DNA from: Armatimonadota bacterium
GTDB taxonomy: Bacteria; Armatimonadota; UBA5829
Length of the DNA stretch: 34,206 bases
Direction of reading: 5' to 3'
NCBI GenBank assembly: GCA_026392045.1
Contig: JAPLCU010000037.1
Location: 1 to 34,206 of the forward strand
The translations under genes were made by a program, and so were the position numbers. Positions 2,449 through 21,259 of this stretch are shown here, one piece after another. Every line of letters starts with the position of its first letter. Within the stretch, counting starts at the first letter, position 1. The notes beneath the pieces were generated by a model. That model was not told the origin of the DNA, did not search any database, and worked only from the letters and a program-made list of their open reading frames with translations.

Positions 2449-5400
2449 ATGAAACCGACAACAAGGGTAATTCTGTTTGCGATGGTGATAATATCTTTGG
2501 CATTGGCGGCAAACGCGACTGTGGCAGTCAATTCGCTTTTTGGAAACAACATGGTTCTTCAGCGCGATAAGGCCTGCCCTATCTGGGGCAGCGCTGCGGC
2601 TAGCAAGACCATCACGGTTACCTTAAAACTTACTGCTAGCCCGTATACCGTAGTTCAGACAAAAACCACCACTTCAGATGCCCAAGGCAACTGGGTGTTG
2701 TACCTGGACGCGATGGCTGCGAATAGCACCAACCGTACATTGACCATCAACGAGGCAAGCGCAAACACGCTTACTTTTACCAATGTAGTGGTCGGCGACG
2801 TCTGGATTTGCAGCGGTCAGTCAAATGCGGACTTCGGTCTGAGCGGGTGCAATCGTCAAACTGAAGATGTCAATACCGCTAACTTCGCGGGAATAAGACA
2901 TATGCGGGTGCCGATGGTTACATCGCGCGACCCTCTGAAAACACTTTCGAGTAGCTGGGAGGTCTGCAGCCCAAGCACAGCAGGCGGATTCTCAGCGATT
3001 GGTTTCTACTTCGCAAGAAAAATCTACCAGGATCAATCTTCAACCATTCCCATCGGCATAATAACATCTGCCATAGGCGGAACCGTTATCGATATTTGGC
3101 TGGCTCCAGAAGGCCTTTCAGACATTCCAGTGATCCAGCCGCTCTATACCCAGGAAATCATGCCTTGGGGTCCTTTTTGTTCGTTTAATGGAATGGTGCA
3201 TCCTTTAGCGCCGATTGGCGCAAAGGGTATGATTTGGTATCAGGGCGAAAACAGAGAAATGACCAACCAGTCCACAGACAGCTATTATCTCAAAGAGAAA
3301 GCTCTTCAGAACGGTTGGAAACGTCTATTTGGTTTGGATGATTTCGCTTTGTATGTTGTGCAGTTGGCCAACTGGCTGGATCCTGCCGCGATTGACTCTA
3401 CAACCCCTGATGCATGGGGCTCGTGGTCGGATACCCGCCAAATGCAGGAAATGGTTTCCAGACTTCCCCACGGAGGCATGGCTTCAGCGATTGACGTTGG
3501 TGAAGCCGCCGACATCCACCCAAAAGACAAGCTTGATGTTGGTGAGCGCCTCGCTTTGTGGGCGTTGAAGAACGATTACGGGCGTACAACCATAGTTCCC
3601 AGCGGCCCGATTCTAAAAGACGTAACTGTTTCAGGAACTAAACTGATATGCTCTTTCGACTATGTTGGCAGCGGCCTTATGGTCGGTTACAAGACTAGTT
3701 ATCCGGCTGCCCAAAACTTGAGCTTAACAGGCGGCACACTGCAGAGGTTTCTTGTTGCGGGAGCCAGTGGGTCCTGGTATACGGCCACTGCAACCATCGT
3801 TGGCAATACTGTGGAAGTCTCCTCACCATCAGTTTCAGCTCCGCGCAAGGTGGCCTATGCATATTGGATGAACCCGGCGGTTCCCGTGGAAACTCCTACA
3901 CAAACAAAAGGCTTGCTTTATAATATCGAAGGCCTCCCCGCATCGCCGTTCTACATAGACGATGCCACGGCGACAGGGCATTTCACGGTTACCGCAACAG
4001 CAGGAGCGGGCGGAACCATCAGCCCGCTAGGCGCGACCACATACCTGAAACGCCGAAATCCTCTTTATACAATCACACCAGATGTGGGCAAGTATATTCT
4101 GGATGTGAAGATTGATGGAACATCGGTAGGATCGGTCAAATATTATACTTTTGACCCGCTCTATGCCAATCACACGATTGCAGTTACTTTCGATACTGTT
4201 GCTCCCAACTATACGATCACCACCACCAGCACCGCAAGCGGCACGATCAGCCCAGCCGGGCCGGTTAGTATCGCGCAAGGCGGATCGCAGACATTCAAGA
4301 TGGTTCCTAACACCGGATGCAGGCTCATAACAGTGACCGCCGATGGAGCGCCTTTGGGCAATAGGAATAGTGTAATATTTGCTGATGTCAGGACTGCCCA
4401 TAGTGTTAATGCGACTTTCGCCGTAATTCCCACGCCGGGCACAGGAACCGGTTTGAGGGGCGATTATTATATAGGCACGAACTTTGAAACATTCAAAGTC
4501 ACCCGAACAAACGCAACTATCAACTTTGACTGGGGCGTCGGATCACCCAACCCCGCAATTCCGATAGAAGGATTCACGGTCAGATGGTCCGGGCAGATTC
4601 AGCCGCAATTCACTGAAACTTACAAGTTCTACGTGAATCATGATGATGGCGCGAAGCTGTGGGTGAACAACGTGCTAGTCGTGAACAATTGGGGCGCCGC
4701 CGGAACCGATGATAACGGCAGCATCGCCTTAACCGCTGGGACAAAATATAACATTAAACTGGAATATGTCGAGCAAATAAGCAATGCAAGCTGCAAGCTG
4801 GAATGGTACAGCACGAGCCTGCCGAGGGAAGTAGTTCCGCAGACTCAGCTCTTCCCAGCCACCACAGCTATTTACACGCTTACGGCAACTGCTGGCTCTA
4901 ACGGCTCATTCAGCCCAAGCGGCGCAGTATTGGCGAACTCTGGCGGAAGCCAGACATTCAGCGTGCTGCCATCTGTAGGATACTACGTCTCTGATGTAAA
5001 GGTAGATAATGTCTCAGTGGGAGCGCCCACTAGTTATACATTCAATAATGTTACCGCTAACCATGCTATCACGGCCACGTTTGCGGCATTGCCAAGCTAT
5101 AGCGTTTCTGGCAAGGTGATCAACAAGACAACCCTGGCGGCTATATCCGGGGCAAAGGTCAATTTCTATACTTCTGCGAGCTTTATAGGCGCTGCGTCAT
5201 ACACTGCAACTACGAATGCATCAGGCGACTATACTATCAGCATTCCTATGGGAACCTGGAGCATAAACGCCACCGCAACCAATTATTTCAATTCAGCGAC
5301 TCAACTATTGACGGTCAGCAATGCGGCCGCCACAAATATCAATTTCTCACTGGCTGATGGCACCAGAAACATTCCGCGGACCTCTGATCTTCTCTTCTCC

Positions 5401-7038
5401 GTTGTTACCGATTCTCTGCCTGCCAGCGGAAACATAAGCGGCTGGGCGACCTATCAGCCCTCGGGCCAGACGCTGGCTATTATAGGCTCCCCTGCAGTAG
5501 AATCGATCATGGGAAGAAAATGGGAAAAGAACCTATATACTGATGGCGATGGCTTTAGATTCGGAGGCTCCAACTCGACTCCCATAGCTTGTAGCGGTGC
5601 AAGCATCGTCCTTGTAACCAAACCAACAAGATCCGCCGACAGCGGCAACTGGAGATCGATTGTAGATATATTCTATGATCGGCTGGTTCTGGGCCTTACT
5701 AATGATGGCGGCAAAGTGTGCGTCAGACGAAACGGCAGCATTGAGTTCAGCAACAATGCCATCCCCGACGGACAGGTTACTGTCTTGAGCATGGTCGTCC
5801 AAACGGACGGCTCCTACAGCGTATACGCTAACGGCAGCTCCACGGCGATCCTCAGCGCAACTGCCACCGGTGCAAATAGCTTCATATCTCTGGTGCCAGG
5901 TGTTACCGGAGGTGTGGGTGGATATGGGACTTATGTCAATGTCGGACGAAACAACCCCGACGGATGGACCACAACCAACGGCTACATCGGCGATGTATTC
6001 GTCTATAAAACTGCGCTTACCCTTGCTGAGCGGCAGACTATTGAAACCGATCTCATGAGCAAGTTCATCACTGGCGGGGCAACTAATTACACCATAAACT
6101 CAACGGCAGGGGCGGGAGGGACGCTGAGCCCTTCTGGGTCAGTATATGTTAACTCGGGAGCCAGCCAGACATTCACCATAGCGGCGAATACAGGATACGC
6201 AACGTCCGATGTCACTGTGGATGGCATATCGCAGGGAATAAAAACAAGCCATACATTCACCAACGTTACTGCGCCTCATAGCATATCGGCGGCATTCGTC
6301 CTGACAACAAAGACCATTACGGCGTCTGCTGGAGCCAATGGGTCGATAAGCCCGAGTGGGGCGGTTGTTGTGAATTATGGAGCAAACCAGACATTCAACA
6401 TCTCGCCGAACGCGGGCTACAAGATCGCCAGCGTTACTGTCGATGGCTCCAATGCAGGCGCCGGAGGCTCCTATACGTTCAACAATGTCATCGTCAATCA
6501 CACGATCACGGCGGCATTTACCCCGATTACTTACACGATCACCTCGTCTGCTGGAGCTAACGGGTCTGTTACTCCGAGCGGAGCGGTGATTGTGAACTAC
6601 AACGCAAACCAGATATTCACATTGTCTCCGTCTGCCGGTTACGGCATCGCGAGTATGAGTGTGGATAGCGCCCCGATTATATCGGGGCCGGTAACAAGCT
6701 ACACGTTCATCAATGTTTTAGCCGACCATACCATATCGGCCACTTTTGCTAAGCTCATAGGTTTGAATAACAAGTCTGCTCTGACCGATGCCAAGCTTGT
6801 AGGAAAAGTCGTGAAAGTCTGGGGCAAGGTCAAGAGCGTGAACGCCGCGACGTCTTTTGTGATAAGTGGCTATAGCTACAAGGATAAGGTCAATAACATC
6901 ATCGTAGTGAAAGATGTTACAGTCAATTTCAACGGTCTAGCACAGCCGTCGGGCTTCGCTGTCAATAAGACCGTTGTAGTTACTGGCATTCTCAGCGCAA
7001 GCAAGGCTATCCAAGCTCAGGCGATAAGTGTATACTGA
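2449..7038 (+). CDS. Secreted multidomain sialate O-acetylesterase-like protein (1529 aa)
   Basis: The start is ATG with AGGAG just upstream, and residues 1-26 form a signal peptide. Residues about 27-500 are an SGNH-type sialate O-acetylesterase: the nucleophile motif CSGQSN (Ser125), SAIGGTVIDIW, the WYQGEN block near residue 263, and the DIHPKDK motif with Asp355 and His357. The catalytic set therefore looks complete. The family removes acetyl esters from sugars; the true substrate may be plant or microbial polysaccharide. Behind the enzyme are two InlB-type B-repeats, a PA14 domain (about 664-802), a third B-repeat, a carboxypeptidase-regulatory-like beta domain (about 884-975), a LamG/concanavalin-like region (about 976-1206), three more B-repeats (about 1214-1434) and an OB-fold-like C-terminal domain (about 1437-1529). 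Stand-alone family enzymes are roughly a third of this length. The GH2 gene follows after 41 bases, so co-transcription is likely. Confidence 0.9.
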   Translation: MKPTTRVILFAMVIISLALAANATVAVNSLFGNNMVLQRDKACPIWGSAAASKTITVTLKLTASPYTVVQTKTTTSDAQGNWVLYLDAMAANSTNRTLTINEASANTLTFTNVVVGDVWICSGQSNADFGLSGCNRQTEDVNTANFAGIRHMRVPMVTSRDPLKTLSSSWEVCSPSTAGGFSAIGFYFARKIYQDQSSTIPIGIITSAIGGTVIDIWLAPEGLSDIPVIQPLYTQEIMPWGPFCSFNGMVHPLAPIGAKGMIWYQGENREMTNQSTDSYYLKEKALQNGWKRLFGLDDFALYVVQLANWLDPAAIDSTTPDAWGSWSDTRQMQEMVSRLPHGGMASAIDVGEAADIHPKDKLDVGERLALWALKNDYGRTTIVPSGPILKDVTVSGTKLICSFDYVGSGLMVGYKTSYPAAQNLSLTGGTLQRFLVAGASGSWYTATATIVGNTVEVSSPSVSAPRKVAYAYWMNPAVPVETPTQTKGLLYNIEGLPASPFYIDDATATGHFTVTATAGAGGTISPLGATTYLKRRNPLYTITPDVGKYILDVKIDGTSVGSVKYYTFDPLYANHTIAVTFDTVAPNYTITTTSTASGTISPAGPVSIAQGGSQTFKMVPNTGCRLITVTADGAPLGNRNSVIFADVRTAHSVNATFAVIPTPGTGTGLRGDYYIGTNFETFKVTRTNATINFDWGVGSPNPAIPIEGFTVRWSGQIQPQFTETYKFYVNHDDGAKLWVNNVLVVNNWGAAGTDDNGSIALTAGTKYNIKLEYVEQISNASCKLEWYSTSLPREVVPQTQLFPATTAIYTLTATAGSNGSFSPSGAVLANSGGSQTFSVLPSVGYYVSDVKVDNVSVGAPTSYTFNNVTANHAITATFAALPSYSVSGKVINKTTLAAISGAKVNFYTSASFIGAASYTATTNASGDYTISIPMGTWSINATATNYFNSATQLLTVSNAAATNINFSLADGTRNIPRTSDLLFSVVTDSLPASGNISGWATYQPSGQTLAIIGSPAVESIMGRKWEKNLYTDGDGFRFGGSNSTPIACSGASIVLVTKPTRSADSGNWRSIVDIFYDRLVLGLTNDGGKVCVRRNGSIEFSNNAIPDGQVTVLSMVVQTDGSYSVYANGSSTAILSATATGANSFISLVPGVTGGVGGYGTYVNVGRNNPDGWTTTNGYIGDVFVYKTALTLAERQTIETDLMSKFITGGATNYTINSTAGAGGTLSPSGSVYVNSGASQTFTIAANTGYATSDVTVDGISQGIKTSHTFTNVTAPHSISAAFVLTTKTITASAGANGSISPSGAVVVNYGANQTFNISPNAGYKIASVTVDGSNAGAGGSYTFNNVIVNHTITAAFTPITYTITSSAGANGSVTPSGAVIVNYNANQIFTLSPSAGYGIASMSVDSAPIISGPVTSYTFINVLADHTISATFAKLIGLNNKSALTDAKLVGKVVKVWGKVKSVNAATSFVISGYSYKDKVNNIIVVKDVTVNFNGLAQPSGFAVNKTVVVTGILSASKAIQAQAISVY
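3981..6750 (+). repeat. Six InlB-type B-repeats in the esterase gene
   Basis: Units of about 74 codons begin near 3981, 4210, 4873, 6088, 6309 and 6532. Each follows the pattern TITASAGANGSISPSGAVVV, then TVDG, YTFNNV and HTISATF. The first three are divergent and separated by PA14 and other domains; the last three are tandem. This is the bacterial surface repeat often labelled Flg_new_2 or divergent InlB B-repeat, acting as a spacer or adhesive module. Confidence 0.85.
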
Positions 7039-7079
7039 TATTTTGATTTTAGCAAGAGAGAAGATGTAAGGAGAATAAA

Positions 7080-10000
7080 ATGAGAGCGAAATCAGTTAAA
7101 GCAAGAGTGTTTTTAGTTTTAATTGTAATATTCGCAACACTGACGCTGGCATCAGCCGCGGCAGGCTGGCAATTAAAGCAGGCTCCGATCATGACGGACT
7201 GGGCTGCCCAGGTGAACTCCGCAAATCCTCTTCCAGAATACCCACGCCCGCAACTAGTTAGATCAGACTGGCTCAACCTCAACGGCATTTGGCAGTTTAA
7301 GCGCGGCTATGCCCCAGACACGGTTCCCGTTGGGCAGAACCTTGGCGGCGATATATTAGTGCCCTACCCGGTCGAGTCCGCGATATCGGGCGTTATGGCA
7401 CATTATGATCGCGTGTGGTACCGCCGCACATTCACCGTCCCGTCTGCGTGGGCTGGCAAGAAAATTATGCTCAACTTCGGCGCGGTGGACTGGGAAGCCC
7501 AGATATATGTCAATGGTACCAGCGTAGGCACCCATCAGGGCGGCTACGACCCGTTTAGTTACGATATTACGTCGTATCTCACCCCCAGCGGCGCGCAGGA
7601 GATTATTGTCAGGGTTTACGACCCGACCGATTCCGGCGGGCAGCCGCGTGGTAAGCAGGTGAACGGCCCAGGAGGCATTTTTTATACAGCCACAACCGGC
7701 ATCTGGCAGACCGTCTGGCTCGAACCTGTGGCGGCGACCAGCATCAGCAGCCTCAAGATTGTGCCGGATGTCGATGGCAGCAGGCTCAAGCTCACTGTTA
7801 ACACAATAGGTCCTACTACCGGTATGACCGTGACGGCAACAGCCAAGGACGGCGCAACGACAGTCGGCGCCGTGACCGGCAGCCCAAACACCGAACTCTA
7901 CATAAGCATTCCAAGCCCAAAGCTGTGGTCCCCGGACAGCCCATTCTTGTATGATCTGAATATCTCACTGGACTCGGGGGCCACTGTGATGGACTCCGTT
8001 ACGAGCTATTTCGGTATGCGCAAGATTGCCAGGGCGCTCGTTAATGGCATCTATAAGCTGGTTCTCAATGGGCAGTTTGTATTTCAGATTGGGCCGCTGG
8101 ACCAGGGATTCTGGCCCGACGGGATCTACACCGCGCCAACTGACGCGGCGCTGAAGTGGGACATTGAGACCGAAAAACAGCTCGGATTCAACTGCGTCCG
8201 CAAGCATGTAAAGATCGAGCCTGCGCGCTGGTATTACTGGGCGGATAAGCTCGGGCTGATGATTTGGCAGGACATGCCCAGCGGCAACAATGGTACTACT
8301 GCAGAAAAGACCCAGTTCGAGATCGAGCTCCAGAGAATGATCGAAAACCACTGGAATTCGCCCTCAATCATAATGTGGGTTGTGTTTAACGAAGGATGGG
8401 GGCAATATGACACCGTAAGGCTCACAAACTGGGTAATGGGCTTCGATCCCAGCCGAATAGTGAACTGCGCCAGTGGGTGGTCGGACTTCGAGGTCGGGCA
8501 TGTCATCGACTACCACAGCTATCCCAGTCCGGTCTGCCCAACGAGCAGCACTCGTGCGCGTGTGTGCGGCGAATACGGCGGCATAGGCTATGCCATTACG
8601 GGCCATATGTGGGACCCCAATTCCTGGGGCTATACCATGGTGACCAGTTCGGGAGACCTCACCGATCTCTACGGCCAGTTTACTTCGACTCAGGTCGGCG
8701 GGTTCAAGACCAACAATGGCCTGAGCGCCGCCATCTACACCCAGATTACCGACGTGGAAACCGAGATCAACGGCCTGGTAACTTATGATAGAAAGGTCAT
8801 TAAGCCCATCATTTCGGCCATCTATGATGCGAATCACTTCCAATACGTCGCTACAACATTTACAATCACTGCATCCGCCGCAACCGGCGGCACCATCAGC
8901 CCAAGTGGATCTGTGGTGGTGAACCAGGCTACAAACAAGACATTCACTATCGCGGAGAACCCCACCGGTTACGCAATATCCAACGTCACAGTGGACAGCG
9001 TGCCTCAGGGCGCTATAACCAGCTATACGTTTAGTAACATCATCGCCAACCACACGATCTCTGCCGCGTTTGTGACCGTGCCTACATTCACAATCACTGC
9101 ATCCGCGGGGACCGGCGGCACTATCAGCCCAAGCGGCGCTGTGATTGTGAACCAGGGTGGAAGCAAGGTTTTCACAATTGCTCCGAGTGTTGGCTACGCC
9201 ATATCAAATGTCACAGTAGATGGTGTATCTAAAGGGGCAATAACCACCTTCACGTTTAACAATGTCACGGTTAGCCACACGATCTCGGCCGCGTTTGTGG
9301 CTATGCCCGCAAAGACAATCACTGCATCCGCCGGAGCCAATGGGTCGATCAGCCCGAGTGGAGCTGTGGTGGTGAACTACGGCGCAAACCAAACATTTAC
9401 ATTCCCCGCAAACACTGGCTACCAGGTTGCCAATGTAACCGTGGATAGTGTGTCTCAAGGAGCGATAACCAGCTATACATTCACCAACGTTACAGCCAAC
9501 CATACAATCAGCGCCACGTTTATGGTTCTGACACCTGTTGCTTACTATCAATTTGAGAACAATGTAAATGACACCCAGGGCGCATACAATGGCACAGCGT
9601 ACGGCACCCCCACCTATGTTACCGGCAAAGTCGGCGCTTTGGCGATCCAGTTCAACGGGACAAACCAGTATGTATCTATTACAAGACCGGTTTCTACTAA
9701 CTGGACAATCTCATTCTTTGTAAAGACCACCCAGACCAGTCCTACCGGATCCCAATGGTATAACGGCAACGGAATAGTCGATGCAGAAGTGGGTGGGGTT
9801 ACAGACGACTTCGGCATCTCGTATCTGAATAGCAAGGTGGCATTCGGCGTAGGCAACGGCGATACGACTCTCCAGTCCACCTCGACGATCAATGGCGGCA
9901 GTTGGAAGCATGTGGCTTGCACACGCAACAGCGCCACTGGTCAGATGAAGGTATATATCAACGGAGTTCTTGAGGCAACAACAACAGGCCCGACTGGGGC

Positions 10001-11066
10001 AAAGAGTGTCCCTGCTACTATGCACTTCGGAAACCTCCAGACCAATATCAACTACTTCAGCGGCGCCATCGACCAGGTAAAGATCTTCAATAGTGTCTTA
10101 ACCGCCACAGACATTACGAATTTGGCGCTTGACGGCACAATCTATACGATCACTGCATCCGCTGGAACCGGTGGATCGATTAGCCCGACTGGAGCTGTGG
10201 CGGTGAACTACGGCGCAAGCCAGACATTTACGTTTCCTCCGAACGTTGGTTATGTCATCTCGCAGGTCACGGTGGACAGCGTGAACCAAGGCGCGCTCAG
10301 CAGTTATACATTCAGCAACGTTACTGCTGCGCATACCATTTCGGCGACCTTTGTCTTGACAACCAAGACCATCACGGCGATAGCCGAAGGCAATGGGTCA
10401 ATAAGCCCGAGCGGAGCTGTTGTAGTGAATTATGGCGCAAACCAGACATTCACCATCACCCCGAACATAGGCTACAAGATCGCCAGCGTCACTGTCGATG
10501 GCGTCAATGCAGGCGCCGGAGGCTCCTATACGTTCTCCAATGTCATCATCAACCATACGATTGCGGCGGCATTTACTCCGATTACTTACACGATCACCTC
10601 ATCTGCTGGAGCTAACGGATCGGTTGCTCCGAGCGGGGCTGTGACCATGAACTATGGCGCGAATCAGACATTCACATTCTCGCATTCGGCAGGCTGCGGC
10701 ATCGTGGATATGAAGGTGGACGGAGCATCCATTGTGCCGGTAGTAAGTTACACTTTCAATAACGTCATCGCCAACCACACCATCTCAGCCACATTTGCCA
10801 AGCTCATAGGTATGAACAACAAGTCTGCCCTGACTGACAGCAAGGTGATAGGAAGAGCAGTCAAGGTCTGGGGTAAGGTCAAGAGCATAAATGGCGCCAC
10901 ATCGTTTGTGATAGCCGATAGCTATAATGCCTCCGGCATTACCGTTATGGTGAACGGTGTCGCGTTACCAGCCGTCTTCGACACCACCAAGACTGTCCTT
11001 GTCACCGGCCTTCTGACCAAGGATGATAGCGGCAATCTCATAGTCAATGCTCAGGATGTAAAATAA
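7080..11066 (+). CDS. Secreted GH2 family glycosidase with B-repeats, LamG and OB-like tail (1328 aa)
   Basis: The start is ATG with AAGGAG (7068-7073) six bases upstream. Residues 1-27 form a signal peptide. Residues about 55-215 are the GH2 sugar-binding jelly roll (LNGIWQFKRGY, YDRVWYRRTF, GIWQTVWLEP). Residues about 216-315 are the immunoglobulin-like domain and about 318-592 the TIM barrel. The acid/base is Glu438 in FNEGWGQ and the likely nucleophile is Glu498 in CGEYGG. GH2 retaining enzymes hydrolyse beta-galactosides, beta-glucuronides, beta-mannosides or arabinosides; specificity cannot be read here, although the style resembles uncharacterised beta-galactosidase-like members. Three B-repeats follow (about 594-814), then a LamG-like domain (about 820-1018), three more B-repeats (about 1022-1240) and the same OB-like C-terminal domain as the upstream gene (about 1241-1328). 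It probably acts outside the cell together with the upstream esterase. Confidence 0.92.
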   Translation: MRAKSVKARVFLVLIVIFATLTLASAAAGWQLKQAPIMTDWAAQVNSANPLPEYPRPQLVRSDWLNLNGIWQFKRGYAPDTVPVGQNLGGDILVPYPVESAISGVMAHYDRVWYRRTFTVPSAWAGKKIMLNFGAVDWEAQIYVNGTSVGTHQGGYDPFSYDITSYLTPSGAQEIIVRVYDPTDSGGQPRGKQVNGPGGIFYTATTGIWQTVWLEPVAATSISSLKIVPDVDGSRLKLTVNTIGPTTGMTVTATAKDGATTVGAVTGSPNTELYISIPSPKLWSPDSPFLYDLNISLDSGATVMDSVTSYFGMRKIARALVNGIYKLVLNGQFVFQIGPLDQGFWPDGIYTAPTDAALKWDIETEKQLGFNCVRKHVKIEPARWYYWADKLGLMIWQDMPSGNNGTTAEKTQFEIELQRMIENHWNSPSIIMWVVFNEGWGQYDTVRLTNWVMGFDPSRIVNCASGWSDFEVGHVIDYHSYPSPVCPTSSTRARVCGEYGGIGYAITGHMWDPNSWGYTMVTSSGDLTDLYGQFTSTQVGGFKTNNGLSAAIYTQITDVETEINGLVTYDRKVIKPIISAIYDANHFQYVATTFTITASAATGGTISPSGSVVVNQATNKTFTIAENPTGYAISNVTVDSVPQGAITSYTFSNIIANHTISAAFVTVPTFTITASAGTGGTISPSGAVIVNQGGSKVFTIAPSVGYAISNVTVDGVSKGAITTFTFNNVTVSHTISAAFVAMPAKTITASAGANGSISPSGAVVVNYGANQTFTFPANTGYQVANVTVDSVSQGAITSYTFTNVTANHTISATFMVLTPVAYYQFENNVNDTQGAYNGTAYGTPTYVTGKVGALAIQFNGTNQYVSITRPVSTNWTISFFVKTTQTSPTGSQWYNGNGIVDAEVGGVTDDFGISYLNSKVAFGVGNGDTTLQSTSTINGGSWKHVACTRNSATGQMKVYINGVLEATTTGPTGAKSVPATMHFGNLQTNINYFSGAIDQVKIFNSVLTATDITNLALDGTIYTITASAGTGGSISPTGAVAVNYGASQTFTFPPNVGYVISQVTVDSVNQGALSSYTFSNVTAAHTISATFVLTTKTITAIAEGNGSISPSGAVVVNYGANQTFTITPNIGYKIASVTVDGVNAGAGGSYTFSNVIINHTIAAAFTPITYTITSSAGANGSVAPSGAVTMNYGANQTFTFSHSAGCGIVDMKVDGASIVPVVSYTFNNVIANHTISATFAKLIGMNNKSALTDSKVIGRAVKVWGKVKSINGATSFVIADSYNASGITVMVNGVALPAVFDTTKTVLVTGLLTKDDSGNLIVNAQDVK
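8858..9521 (+). repeat. Three tandem B-repeats (first array of the GH2 gene)
   Basis: Units begin near 8858, 9087 and 9312, each about 220 bases, with the same TITASAG, TVDSV, YTFSN and NHTISA landmarks as in the esterase gene. The array links the catalytic barrel to the LamG-like domain. Confidence 0.85.
10143..10797 (+). repeat. Three tandem B-repeats (second array of the GH2 gene)
   Basis: Units begin near 10143, 10362 and 10587. The last two units plus the OB-like tail (10362-11063) are paralogous at DNA level to 6309-7035 of the esterase gene, including a 31-base identical tract at 6450-6480 and 10505-10535. This points to duplication or gene conversion of the 3' module. Confidence 0.85.
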
Positions 11067-15775: not shown

Positions 15776-15819
15776 TGTTGCTTCGGTATCCTGATGCCGA
15801 AGCTTTGCTGATTCAGGTT
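15776..15819. repeat. 44-base direct repeat with internal palindrome, copy 1
   Basis: This lies in the 335-base spacer 15552-15886, in which no gene is seen. The core 15777-15803 contains arms GCTTCGGTAT and ATGCCGAAGC (one G-T pair) around CCTG, so it can form a 10-bp stem. It is identical over 44 bases to copy 2, 51 bases downstream. The same 27-base core occurs inside the exosortase gene at 20539. Confidence 0.85.
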
Positions 15820-15826
15820 TTGTTGC

Positions 15827-15870
15827 TGTTGCTTCGGTATCCTGATGCCGAAGCTTTGCTGATTCAGGTT
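15827..15870. repeat. 44-base direct repeat with internal palindrome, copy 2
   Basis: Identical to 15776-15819 with only seven bases between the copies. It ends immediately before the ribosome binding site of ugd (AGGAG at 15875-15879), so the two hairpins would lie in the leader if transcription starts upstream. They could influence ugd expression or be inert insertions. Confidence 0.85.
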
Positions 15871-15886: not shown

Positions 15887-17197
15887 ATGAATCTTTGCGT
15901 GATAGGCACGGGATATGTCGGCTTGGTAACTGGCGCGGTGTTCTCTGACCTCGGATACACCGTTTACTGCGCCGATACCGATGGCTCGAAAATCGATATG
16001 CTCAACTGTGGCAAGATGCCCATTTACGAACCGGGACTCGAAGAAGTGGTGGAGCGTAACACGCAAGACGGCAGGCTGTTTTTCTCGACTGACATCGGCG
16101 ACTGCATCAGCCGTTCGGAAATTGTCTTTATTGCCGTCGGAACTCCTCCGGGAGCGGATGGATATGCAGACCTTGGGGCGGTAAAAGCGGTCGCGAAGAC
16201 TGTGGCTCAGAATCTTAACAGCTATAAAGTGGTTGTCAACAAGAGCACGGTGCCGGTTGGCACGGCAGATATTGTTAGAGAGATTATTATTGAGAACCGT
16301 GTTGATCCTCAAGTGGATTTTGATGTGGTTTCCAACCCCGAGTTCCTGCGCGAAGGCAACGCCATCACGGACACTCTAAAGCCCGATAGAATCGTGATCG
16401 GAGCTTCTTGCCAATCTGCGGCGATGAAGCTTGTCGAGCTATATGCGCCGCTTGAGCGGCCGATGGTTGTTACGGATGTTCGCTCAGCCGAGGTGATAAA
16501 ATACGCGTCGAATTCGTTCCTGGCAACCAAGATTTCTTTCATTAACGCAATTGCGAATATTTGCGAGCTCGCCGGGGCGGATGTGCACAAAGTTGCTAAG
16601 GGGATTGGCTTGGATGCCCGCATTGGAACTGCGTTTTTGAACGCCGGTCTTGGGTGGGGCGGGTCTTGTTTTGGAAAGGACACCGCCTGCTTCATCGCAA
16701 CAGCCGAGAAGCTGGGTTATGATTTCGCGCTGCTGAAGTCTGTTGTGGACATCAATTCGCAGCAGCCCGCTTTCTTCGTTAAGAAAATAAATAGTGTTCT
16801 CAGAGGGCTTGAAGGCAAGAAAATCGCGGTGCTTGGTCTCGCATTTAAGCCGAATACCGATGACCTTCGAGACGGCAAGTCCATTGAGATTATGGCCCAG
16901 CTTTCGGCCTTGGGCGCTGAGATACGAGCCTATGACCCCATCGCCATGGACAATGCCAGGAAAGCCTACCCAGATGTTGATTATTGCGTCGACCCATACC
17001 AGGCTGCTGCTAATGCTGATGCTATTGTGATCGTAACTGAATGGAACGAGTTCAAGTTCCTGGATTTCGATAGGCTCAAGAAGACTATGCGCGCCCCTGT
17101 GATTTTCGACGGACGCAACATGTTCGACCCCGATCGCATACGAAGCAAAGGCTTCGAGTATCACTGTGTGGGAAGAGCGGCGAAGGACAGGGAATAG
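15887..17197 (+). CDS. ugd: UDP-glucose 6-dehydrogenase
   Basis: A 436-residue cytoplasmic enzyme oxidising UDP-glucose to UDP-glucuronate with two NAD+. Start ATG with AGGAG (15875-15879) seven bases upstream. The N-terminal Rossmann domain opens with VIGTGYVGL (GxGxxG, residues 5-13) and has the NAD-ribose acidic residue at Asp30. Family landmarks are YEPGLEE (47-53), GTPPG (85-89), KSTVPVGT (119-126), NPEFLREG (150-157) and the catalytic Cys261 in GWGGSCFGKD. The C-terminal UDP-binding domain has LGLAFKPNTDDLRD. Length is normal and all key residues are present. It is the first gene of the polysaccharide operon and supplies UDP-GlcA for the epimerase two genes downstream. Confidence 0.95.
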   Translation: MNLCVIGTGYVGLVTGAVFSDLGYTVYCADTDGSKIDMLNCGKMPIYEPGLEEVVERNTQDGRLFFSTDIGDCISRSEIVFIAVGTPPGADGYADLGAVKAVAKTVAQNLNSYKVVVNKSTVPVGTADIVREIIIENRVDPQVDFDVVSNPEFLREGNAITDTLKPDRIVIGASCQSAAMKLVELYAPLERPMVVTDVRSAEVIKYASNSFLATKISFINAIANICELAGADVHKVAKGIGLDARIGTAFLNAGLGWGGSCFGKDTACFIATAEKLGYDFALLKSVVDINSQQPAFFVKKINSVLRGLEGKKIAVLGLAFKPNTDDLRDGKSIEIMAQLSALGAEIRAYDPIAMDNARKAYPDVDYCVDPYQAAANADAIVIVTEWNEFKFLDFDRLKKTMRAPVIFDGRNMFDPDRIRSKGFEYHCVGRAAKDRE

Positions 17198-17210
17198 AAG
17201 GGAAAAAGAG

Positions 17211-18494
17211 TTGAAAGAGAGAATCGCTGTAGTTGGCCTGGGATACGTTGGTCTTCCTGTGGCTTTGGCATGTGCGGAAAAATTTAGCAACACGGTTGGG
17301 TTCGATATAAATGCATCCCGCGTCAATGCTCTCAAGAGTGGCGTTGATAACACTGGAGAACGCACAAAAGAAGAGTTGATGAAATCTCCACTAGTCTGGA
17401 GCAGCAATATCGATGACCTCAAAGACATTTCCTTCTTTATAGTTGCTGTTCCTACCCCTATAGATTCAGCGAAGAGGCCAGATTTGACCCCTTTGGAGAG
17501 CGCTTCGCGGACCGTTGGCAAGGTGTTGAAGCCGGGAGCGGTAGTCGTTTACGAATCGACAGTGTACCCTGGCGTTACGGAAGATATATGCGGGCCTATT
17601 TTGGCGAAAGAATCTGGCCTGGCGCAGAGCGTGGACTTCAAACTCGGATATTCACCAGAGCGCATCAACCCCGGCGATAAAGAGCATACGCTTGAGAAGA
17701 TTATCAAGGTGGTTTCTGGTGAAGACGAAGAAACCCTCGAAAGGGTCGCGGCCGTGTATGGCGCTATTATTGATGCGGGAGTGCACAAGGCGCCGTCGAT
17801 AAAAGTGGCGGAGGCTGCCAAGGTCATAGAGAACACCCAGAGAGACCTCAATATCGCCCTTATGAATGAACTCTCGCTGATATTCAGCAGGATGGATATA
17901 TCCACAAAGGACGTGCTGGATGCGGCGGAGACCAAGTGGAACTTCTTGAGGTTCACCCCCGGTCTGGTGGGTGGACATTGCATTGGCGTTGACCCTTATT
18001 ACCTCACCACTAAAGCCGAGGAGCTGGGCTATCACCCGGAAGTTATTCTTTCGGGACGTCGAATTAATGACTATATGGGGCGCTATGTGGCTAGGAGAGT
18101 TATAAAGATGCTTGTGAACTCCGGTTGCGAGAACATGAAGAATGCAAGGATCGGCGTAGTGGGTTTGACGTTCAAAGAAGATGTTTCGGACCTGCGCAAT
18201 AGTCGAGTTCCTGATATAATTAGTGAGTTCAAAGACTACGGAATTCAGGCGCTTGTCTATGATCCTATGGTCGATGAACACGAGGCGATGGAAGAATACG
18301 GGATCAAGCTTTCGAAATGCGAGGAGCTCGAGGACCTGGATGCGTTGGTCCTGACTGTTCCTCATGCCGCTGTGATGCAGATAGGCAAGGATAAGTTGCT
18401 TGAGAAGATCAAGCCCGGCGGAATTTTGGCGGATATTAAGTCTGTATATCATGGCGCGCAAATGCCGAATAACATCCAACGTTGGGCGTTTTAG
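17211..18494 (+). CDS. UDP-N-acetylhexosamine 6-dehydrogenase (WbpO/TviB/WbpA-type)
   Basis: A nucleotide-sugar dehydrogenase of the UDP-GlcNAc/GalNAc branch. I place the start at TTG 17211, 13 bases after the ugd stop, giving LKERIAVVGLGYVGLP; a longer GTG frame from 17166 would overlap ugd and adds a charged, non-homologous stretch. No ATG is available. NAD-binding GLGYVGLP, ESTVYPGVTED, GYSPERINPGD and the catalytic Cys257 in GGHCIGVDPYYL are clear; GYSPERINPGD and GGHCIGVDP distinguish this branch from UDP-glucose dehydrogenase. The C-terminal domain has GLTFKEDVSDLRNSR. It would form UDP-GlcNAcA or UDP-GalNAcA for the polymer. Tandem placement with ugd fits a capsule or exopolysaccharide operon. 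The exact epimer cannot be decided. Confidence 0.9.
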   Translation: MKERIAVVGLGYVGLPVALACAEKFSNTVGFDINASRVNALKSGVDNTGERTKEELMKSPLVWSSNIDDLKDISFFIVAVPTPIDSAKRPDLTPLESASRTVGKVLKPGAVVVYESTVYPGVTEDICGPILAKESGLAQSVDFKLGYSPERINPGDKEHTLEKIIKVVSGEDEETLERVAAVYGAIIDAGVHKAPSIKVAEAAKVIENTQRDLNIALMNELSLIFSRMDISTKDVLDAAETKWNFLRFTPGLVGGHCIGVDPYYLTTKAEELGYHPEVILSGRRINDYMGRYVARRVIKMLVNSGCENMKNARIGVVGLTFKEDVSDLRNSRVPDIISEFKDYGIQALVYDPMVDEHEAMEEYGIKLSKCEELEDLDALVLTVPHAAVMQIGKDKLLEKIKPGGILADIKSVYHGAQMPNNIQRWAF

Positions 18495-19571: not shown

Positions 19572-19624
19572 CATAACCAAATCAGAAAACCAGTTATTTT
19601 TATGTGCATACGAGGAGATTTAAG

Positions 19625-21259
19625 ATGGGAAAGAGTTCTCATGGTAGTGATTTGTGGCAACAAGTGAAGAGCATTGTCCTACGATACTGGCAGGTGTTGA
19701 CCGTTGGAGCGCTGTTTATTATTGTCCAGTTGCCTGTGCTTGCTAATTGGCGAGCGATTTGGGATGAACAGGACAGCTATTATTCGCATGGGTGGTTGGT
19801 TCCCTTTATGGCGCTGTTCTTGCTTTGGGTAAATAGGAAGATAATCACCCAGACTCCTATTAAGCCGAGCTGGTATGGTTTGCTAATTCTGGCTGTGGCT
19901 GCTCCGATTCATTCGGTCGCGATGCTCATGGAACTGCGTGTGCTTTATATGCTCACGTTCTTCACCACACTTTTCGGCATTTTGCTGTTGTTCTTCGGCT
20001 GGCGTATGGTGAAGGTTGTTGGGGTGCCAGTTTTATTCTTGATCACCATGATGCCTATTGCTTCCGGCGTGATTGACTCTCTGACGGCGAATGCTCAGCT
20101 TGTCTCAGCTGCGGTGGCGACCAGGTTCCTGCAATGGACCGGTTACGAAGTTACTCGATATGGCAATATCATCACAGGTGATGGGCTTCCTTGTGATCTG
20201 CGCGTGGCTTCCCCATGCAGCGGATTGCGTCTGCTGATATCGCTGATAACGTTCACCTGGTTTTTTACCTACGTCATAATCGCTCCGAAGTGGAAAAAAG
20301 CTATATTGTTTCTCATGGCGTTTCCCCTCGGCGTATTCATAAACAGTCTTAGAATCACTATGATCGGCTATGTCGGTTTTTGGATTGGCACTGAAGAAGC
20401 TGTGCGTTCATTCCACAATTCCAGCGGCTATATTGGCTTGTTATTATGCTTTGCCATACTATTTGGTATTGCGAAGCTTATGCGCTGCGTGGATATGGAC
20501 TTGGAAAGAGAGCCGACATCGATTTCGCAGACCAACAGGTTGCTTCGGTATCCTGATGCCGAAGCCTGCCGTAGATCAATCAACACCAAGTTTGCAGTTG
20601 CTATAGTGATTTTGGTTGGGTTAGCATATATTGGCAATATGGTGGAGCCTTTGTACAGACTGCCAAAAGGAAAGCTCGATCGCACGATGATCCCTGCGAA
20701 GTTTGGCGACTGGACAAGCAAGGATATCGAGGTGGACAAAGAGACAAGGGACATACTTCAAAAAGGCGATCTGCTCAGCCGCCTCTATACCAATAGTTCA
20801 GACAGGCAGGTGCATGTGTTCCTGGATGCCGGCGTCGATCTTTCTGCTTTCCATGACCCTCATCTCTGCATGACCGGAAGCGGTAATAATATAGTGAGGG
20901 AGCATCAGTTTGAGCTGTTGATCACGCAACCATACTCCGACAAGCTGAGAGTAACTTCATTTGAACTCGTGAGAAGCGACAATACCGGCATTGTTCTATA
21001 TTGGTATATGCGCAGCAAAGACTCATATGCACTGACCAATCACTTGTGGGGTCTTAGGCGTCAGTTTTGGATTTCCGATTTGAAAGAACTGGTGACTAAT
21101 CCTATGAATATAGACGAACTCCGAAAGAAGATCAAGGCAAGGCAGTTTACGTGGTATAGATTCTCCACGGACAGGTATGCTGGAGACAAATCTGACATGC
21201 AATTCATTGAGAGCTTTGCAAGAGAGTATATCAAGAACAAGAAGGACTTTGGCAGGTGA
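19625..21259 (+). CDS. Exosortase fused to EpsI domain
   Basis: A multi-spanning membrane protein of 544 residues. I chose ATG 19625, which has AGGAG seven bases upstream, over GTG 19604. The exosortase part (about 25-285) has around seven hydrophobic segments, and the cysteine-protease-like triad is visible: Cys198 in PCSGLR, Arg243 in NSLRI, His264 in SFHNSSGY. The C-terminal part (about 320-544) is an EpsI domain after another membrane segment, with KFGDW and FHDPHLCMTGSG. Exosortases process C-terminal sorting tags of secreted proteins (PEP-CTERM type) and sit in exopolysaccharide loci; fusion with EpsI is a known arrangement. The linker between the two domains, residues about 305-314 (LLRYPDAEA), is encoded by a palindromic repeat also present upstream of ugd. 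No protein whose C-terminus is visible in this window has a recognisable CTERM tag. Confidence 0.92.
   Translation: MGKSSHGSDLWQQVKSIVLRYWQVLTVGALFIIVQLPVLANWRAIWDEQDSYYSHGWLVPFMALFLLWVNRKIITQTPIKPSWYGLLILAVAAPIHSVAMLMELRVLYMLTFFTTLFGILLLFFGWRMVKVVGVPVLFLITMMPIASGVIDSLTANAQLVSAAVATRFLQWTGYEVTRYGNIITGDGLPCDLRVASPCSGLRLLISLITFTWFFTYVIIAPKWKKAILFLMAFPLGVFINSLRITMIGYVGFWIGTEEAVRSFHNSSGYIGLLLCFAILFGIAKLMRCVDMDLEREPTSISQTNRLLRYPDAEACRRSINTKFAVAIVILVGLAYIGNMVEPLYRLPKGKLDRTMIPAKFGDWTSKDIEVDKETRDILQKGDLLSRLYTNSSDRQVHVFLDAGVDLSAFHDPHLCMTGSGNNIVREHQFELLITQPYSDKLRVTSFELVRSDNTGIVLYWYMRSKDSYALTNHLWGLRRQFWISDLKELVTNPMNIDELRKKIKARQFTWYRFSTDRYAGDKSDMQFIESFAREYIKNKKDFGR
20539..20565. repeat. Palindromic element inside the exosortase-EpsI gene
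   Basis: This 27-base stretch is identical to the cores at 15777-15803 and 15828-15854: GCTTCGGTAT, loop CCTG, ATGCCGAAGC. Here it is translated in frame (LLRYPDAEA) and falls in the linker after the last exosortase membrane segment and before the EpsI membrane segment. It seems to be a mobile palindrome captured in a coding sequence. Confidence 0.85.

Follow-up and report, generated by a model that had tools for sequence, protein, structure and literature searches.

The exosortase-EpsI gene and its palindromic segment

The window, i.e. the whole stretch of 34,206 nucleotides analysed here, contains at 19604..21259 (+) a gene encoding an exosortase (EpsH) fused to EpsI/DUF3485 (551 aa), the start of which may be the ATG at 19625 rather than the GTG at 19604. 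Upstream of this gene and of an epimerase gene, two different UDP-glucose/GDP-mannose dehydrogenase genes are arranged in tandem with overlapping ends (15887-17197 and 17166-18494). Two large ORFs of secreted type contain about nine repeat units of 222-225 nt (positions 4871-10721), and the second ORF shows a match to Flg_new_2, a divergent InlB B-repeat family.

The preliminary description had reported a 27-base palindrome occurring three times in the window. Three copies were indeed present, but the segment in the exosortase gene (20539..20565, +) consists of an unpaired GTT head followed by GCTTCGGTATCCTGATGCCGAAGC, and the palindrome proper is imperfect and comprises 24 nt (20542-20565). 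Folded as single-stranded DNA, the head-bearing strand forms a 10-bp stem including one T.G pair and a 4-nt CCTG loop, with a fold energy of -8.2 kcal/mol (z -6.9). The other two copies of head and palindrome are intergenic and lie head-to-tail upstream of ugd (15777..15803 and 15828..15854, both +), their 24-mers at 15780-15803 and 15831-15854 being identical to that of the exosortase gene. Their location in repeats of about 44 identical nucleotides was confirmed, and their starts are 51 nt apart. At up to three mismatches, 100 shuffles yielded no copy as compared to the three observed in the window. No Rfam family matched the palindrome at the gathering thresholds.

In the exosortase gene the segment is read TTG CTT CGG TAT CCT GAT GCC GAA GCC, i.e. 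LLRYPDAEA, corresponding to codons 313-321 counted from GTG 19604 or approximately 306-314 from ATG 19625. Both the frame of the ORF and the Pfam domain limits confirmed that these residues lie in frame in the linker between Exosortase_EpsH (residues 36-292) and DUF3485/EpsI (residues 332-470), and both domains are still recognised. The sequence LRYPDAEA was found in none of the aligned fused exosortase-EpsI relatives, which favours an insertion. Orthologues had been expected to be about nine residues shorter; they lack the segment and close orthologues have a linker shorter by 6-11 residues, but the gain cannot be pinned to exactly nine residues because the best orthologue is only 48% identical.

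That the nine residues represent conserved or convergent linker protein sequence instead of an insertion is exceedingly improbable. The linker is variable, so a length difference of a few residues means little alone; however, none of the aligned orthologues has the segment, LacZ and an M16 protease contain the same nine residues, and the 24-mer is common to 184 places in the genome. A conserved protein segment was thus ruled out by orthologues and copy number, and the same two lines of evidence support the earlier proposal of a dispersed palindrome of selfish type that was captured in frame in a linker.

Genome-wide distribution and a candidate transposase

The 184 copies were detected at up to two mismatches in the 3.55-Mb genome, the assembly of which is fragmented into 206 contigs, and a reversed-pattern control gave none; this number favours a dispersed repeat over a sequence with few genomic copies. 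Exact copies account for 135 of them (58 forward, 77 reverse). Individual reading of 151 copies with their flanks revealed 86 clusters of one to five copies. All 38 multi-copy clusters are arranged head-to-tail, mostly with a spacing of 30-80 nt, and none showed the inverted-pair unit of REPINs or BIMEs. The flank consensus reads TTAGTT before the palindrome and CTACCG after it, and thus does not contain the CGTC terminal motif of the CGTC REP superfamily; xGTT precedes 129 of 148 copies (GTTG together with the first base of the stem), in place of the GTAG or GTGG head of the GTAG REP superfamily. In the 100 exact copies read first, the TT of the head was invariant and its G was present in 88%. 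Directly 3' of the palindrome, CT was found in 79 of 148 copies. Array spacers usually equal the first bases of the right flank joined to the head, which indicates that units of head, palindrome and some 3' flank were multiplied locally. A second hairpin is carried by 9 of 148 copies.

CTGGTT stands on both sides of the copy in lacZ, but inspection by eye of other isolated copies revealed no such repetition, which speaks against a general target-site duplication. The array boundaries agree only in part with CT-bounded duplication units as transposase footprints, and carriage by phages was dismissed as the palindrome had no match in viral contigs.

Among five Y1_Tnp loci of the genome, the one on contig C107 encodes a 182-aa RAYT (L085:3988-4536, -) with the HUH motif MPDHYHVI and the tyrosine motif DYIHRNP. 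It is situated between inverted copies of exactly the GCTTCGGTATCCTGATGCCGAAGC palindrome at 3934 (+) and 4511 (-), both of which carry the second hairpin. The protein scored above the cut-off of PF01797 and matched NF047646 (REP_Tyr_transpos) over its full length with 74.4 bits, the NCBIfam equivalog cut-off being 80; its best PDB relative was TnpArep 4er8 (E 1.2e-4). Another RAYT of the genome (L082, G000:C179) is enclosed by an inverted pair of a different palindrome, GCTTCGGGACTGTTTTTCGTCCCGAAGC, at 245-272 and 883-910.

A phylum-wide search identified RAYT orthologues of 57-62% identity in genomes G243, G229, G227, G244 and G196. These adjoin palindromes with a common head and foot (GTTGCTTCGG...CCGAAGC) and a genome-specific apex, followed in most cases by a second G+C-rich hairpin. 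Of 291 genomes, 14 contain the foot pattern GTTGCTTCGG-N7-15-CCGAAGC, and the ten with at least five hits include all six that possess close RAYTs, an overlap with a chance of 3e-10 for unrelated genomes, a figure weakened by shared ancestry. The apex beside each close RAYT, or a near-identical one, recurs across its own genome. A tree of the RAYTs calculated with regard to co-descent was poorly resolved, one of 12 inner branches being well supported. G243 also contains a broken RAYT, 72-74% identical over the C-terminal half, beside the CATCCTGATG apex. In the same genome, two elements of about 190 bp (L258:1479-1668 and 3002-3191, G243:C26) have inverted footed palindromes at both ends and match the end of the C118 RAYT locus; they resemble REPIN- or MITE-like derivatives.

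The repeat is therefore very probably a non-autonomous mobile element of REP type that is mobilised by the C107 RAYT (TnpA_REP, a Y1 HUH transposase), as judged from copy number, the conserved head and foot, the intact RAYT between inverted copies, the co-divergence of RAYT and apex, the head-to-tail arrays and the in-frame residence described below. Alternatively, the palindrome could be a Rickettsia palindromic element (RPE) or another MITE-like element unlinked to RAYT, with inverted copies beside the C107 gene by chance. In-frame residence is a hallmark of RPEs, and the copies are single or head-to-tail, not in inverted pairs. We nevertheless consider this explanation very unlikely, since the adjacency of RAYT and palindrome with matching apices is repeated in six genomes, and with clusters spaced at roughly one in 35-40 kb, an inverted pair within 600 bp around a RAYT would hardly arise by chance.

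Copies inside genes

In-gene copies were called by a codon-usage scan of long ORFs, gene calls being based on ORFs and codon usage. In-frame copies were found in the exosortase gene and in 10-12 other genes, in both orientations. The encoded proteins are a PMT-type glycosyltransferase (L092), a CHAT-TPR protein (L095), the beta-galactosidase LacZ (L096), an arabinofuranosidase (L099), a protein without Pfam match (L112), CarB (L116), CheA (L129), the M16 protease (L133), fused glycosyltransferases with five copies (L141) and an HGD-D protein (L146), the copy of which also carries the second hairpin. Less certain are the copies at L140 (N-terminal) and L143 (contig end), and the copy at L163 is more likely located in the rpsJ leader than in a gene. 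All five stop-free readings of the palindrome are used, namely LLRYPDAEA, CFGILMPKP, ASASGYRS, LRHQDTEA and GFGIRIPKQ, whereas the sixth contains TGA. The earlier suggestion that the element generates new peptide segments is thus supported for open reading frames and hypothetical for expressed or functional peptides.

The palindrome is mainly intergenic: about 73 of the 86 clusters lie outside long coding ORFs and approximately 11-13 inside genes, whereas coding sequence makes up about 0.77 of an unselected sample of 373 kb. Copies in genes are hence strongly under-represented, as expected if most gene-hitting insertions are lost. The intergenic preference, together with the stable hairpin, would also suit a DNA motif with a regulatory or structural role (a terminator, an attenuator, an uptake site or a site for chromosome organisation) whose copies increased through selection for a cell function, the link to RAYT being secondary. 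Such a motif is very unlikely, because the palindrome is read in frame, in either orientation, in roughly twelve unrelated genes, the consensus has no T-run after the hairpin, and only a handful of genomes in the phylum contain the repeat, with a different apex in each that tracks the RAYT.

Comparison with relatives revealed a single clean empty site. Three LacZ relatives of 60-64% identity read REKSPWF where the protein described here reads REASPW-LLRYPDAEAW-F, a gain of exactly ten codons (30 nt). The PMT-type protein is 4-7 residues longer than its relatives. For CarB, the net length differed by about -1 from relatives of 62-64% identity and by about +9-10 from three of the relatives of about 50% identity. 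No length change was observed for the CHAT-TPR protein, and one of 0-3 residues for the arabinofuranosidase in comparison with three paralogues of the same genome. Since the change is close to zero at several copies, capture is not always a simple addition.

The CheA copy occupies the linker that separates two P2 domains; relatives have a single P2 there. The ORF L141:2642-5200 (+) comprises two group-4 glycosyltransferases that are two separate ORFs in relatives, and five in-frame tandem copies mark the junction. The array at L159 was considered as a possible strain variant of L141, but the match is limited to the array itself and short stretches on either side. A further family of short repeats, GCGAGGCTCCYGCCGAGCC (peptide EGEAPAEP), with 69 hits genome-wide in G000 and 47 in G241, is likewise found in frame in CheA (L129:7203-9644, -) as 'LAGEGEAPAEPQ', adjoining the copy of the first family.

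Relation to known elements and proposed mechanism

The element shares many features with GTAG REPs and their RAYT/TnpA_REP genes (REPtrons) of E. coli, Pseudomonas and Stenotrophomonas (PMC2817692, PMC8266576): a short palindrome with a short 5' head, more than 100 mostly intergenic copies, a RAYT flanked by inverted copies, and an apex co-varying with the RAYT. It differs by its GTT(G) head, by the second hairpin following the first at REPtrons, and by arrays that are exclusively head-to-tail. Like REPINs and BIMEs it is dispersed and apparently RAYT-dependent, and the 190-bp elements of G243 are inverted pairs with REPtron ends; unlike them, copies in the window genome are single or head-to-tail. 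Because the element falls outside the GTAG, CGTC and REPIN/BIME definitions but shares with REPtrons the high, mainly intergenic copy number and the RAYT flanked by inverted copies, we filed it as a RAYT-REP variant.

The preliminary description had compared it, as an unnamed element, to the Rickettsia palindromic elements (RPE-1 and others), which also lie in frame inside coding genes. The evidence instead points to a RAYT-type REP element; the lineage is different, and the likeness is one of behaviour, namely in-frame residence. RPE-1 is much longer than the palindrome described here, and the Rickettsia palindromic elements are not known to have a mobiliser.

A catalogue of REPs lying in frame within ORFs was published in 2013 and covers Opitutus terrae, Rickettsia conorii (RPE-4/RPE-6) and others (PMC3733652), so this class of phenomenon is known. 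The intragenic GTAG and CGTC REPs of that study also occupy linkers and loops of unrelated proteins in frame. However, neither head motif fits the present palindrome, head-head dimers predominate there and head-tail ones here, and CGTC REPs are without an associated transposase whereas the in-gene element studied here has a RAYT partner. The present family is thus set apart by the GTTG head, the second hairpin at REPtrons, the exclusively head-to-tail arrays and a clear candidate RAYT partner for in-gene copies.

TnpA_REP is known to cleave single-stranded REP at a CT beside the hairpin, for which the head is needed (PMC8266576). By analogy with other TnpA_REPs, the C107 RAYT would recognise the single-stranded hairpin via foot and GTT head, cleave beside it and join the unit of head and hairpin elsewhere, either by copying or by moving it. 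Most surviving insertions would be intergenic, and those hitting genes would survive only where the frame is kept and the loop or linker is tolerant. What allows such survival is that only one of the six readings of the 24-mer contains a stop and that the LacZ unit of 30 nt equals ten codons. The exosortase copy would accordingly be one surviving in-frame REP insertion. Counting against the REP/RAYT assignment are the NF047646 score below cut-off, the near-zero length changes at L095 and L099, and the GTTG head, which differs from the GTAG head whose role was tested in vitro (PMC8266576); applied literally to GTTG, the published guide model predicts cleavage at CA, not CT.

It is possible, though somewhat short of an even chance, that this RAYT-driven GTTG-headed REP habitually enters genes in whole codons, at times in exchange for existing sequence, and that its head-to-tail growth joined the two glycosyltransferase genes at L141. 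An element of 24-30 nt may in this way lengthen linkers or join genes, and its head lies outside the GTAG and CGTC superfamilies. How protein-coding palindromes spread is a question left open by the Rickettsia elements, which have no known mobiliser. It becomes testable where one genome contains the palindrome together with copies inside genes and an intact candidate transposase, and where the pairing recurs in relatives. If the proposal is true, the GTTG REP family would provide the transposase that is missing for protein-coding palindromes like those of Rickettsia.
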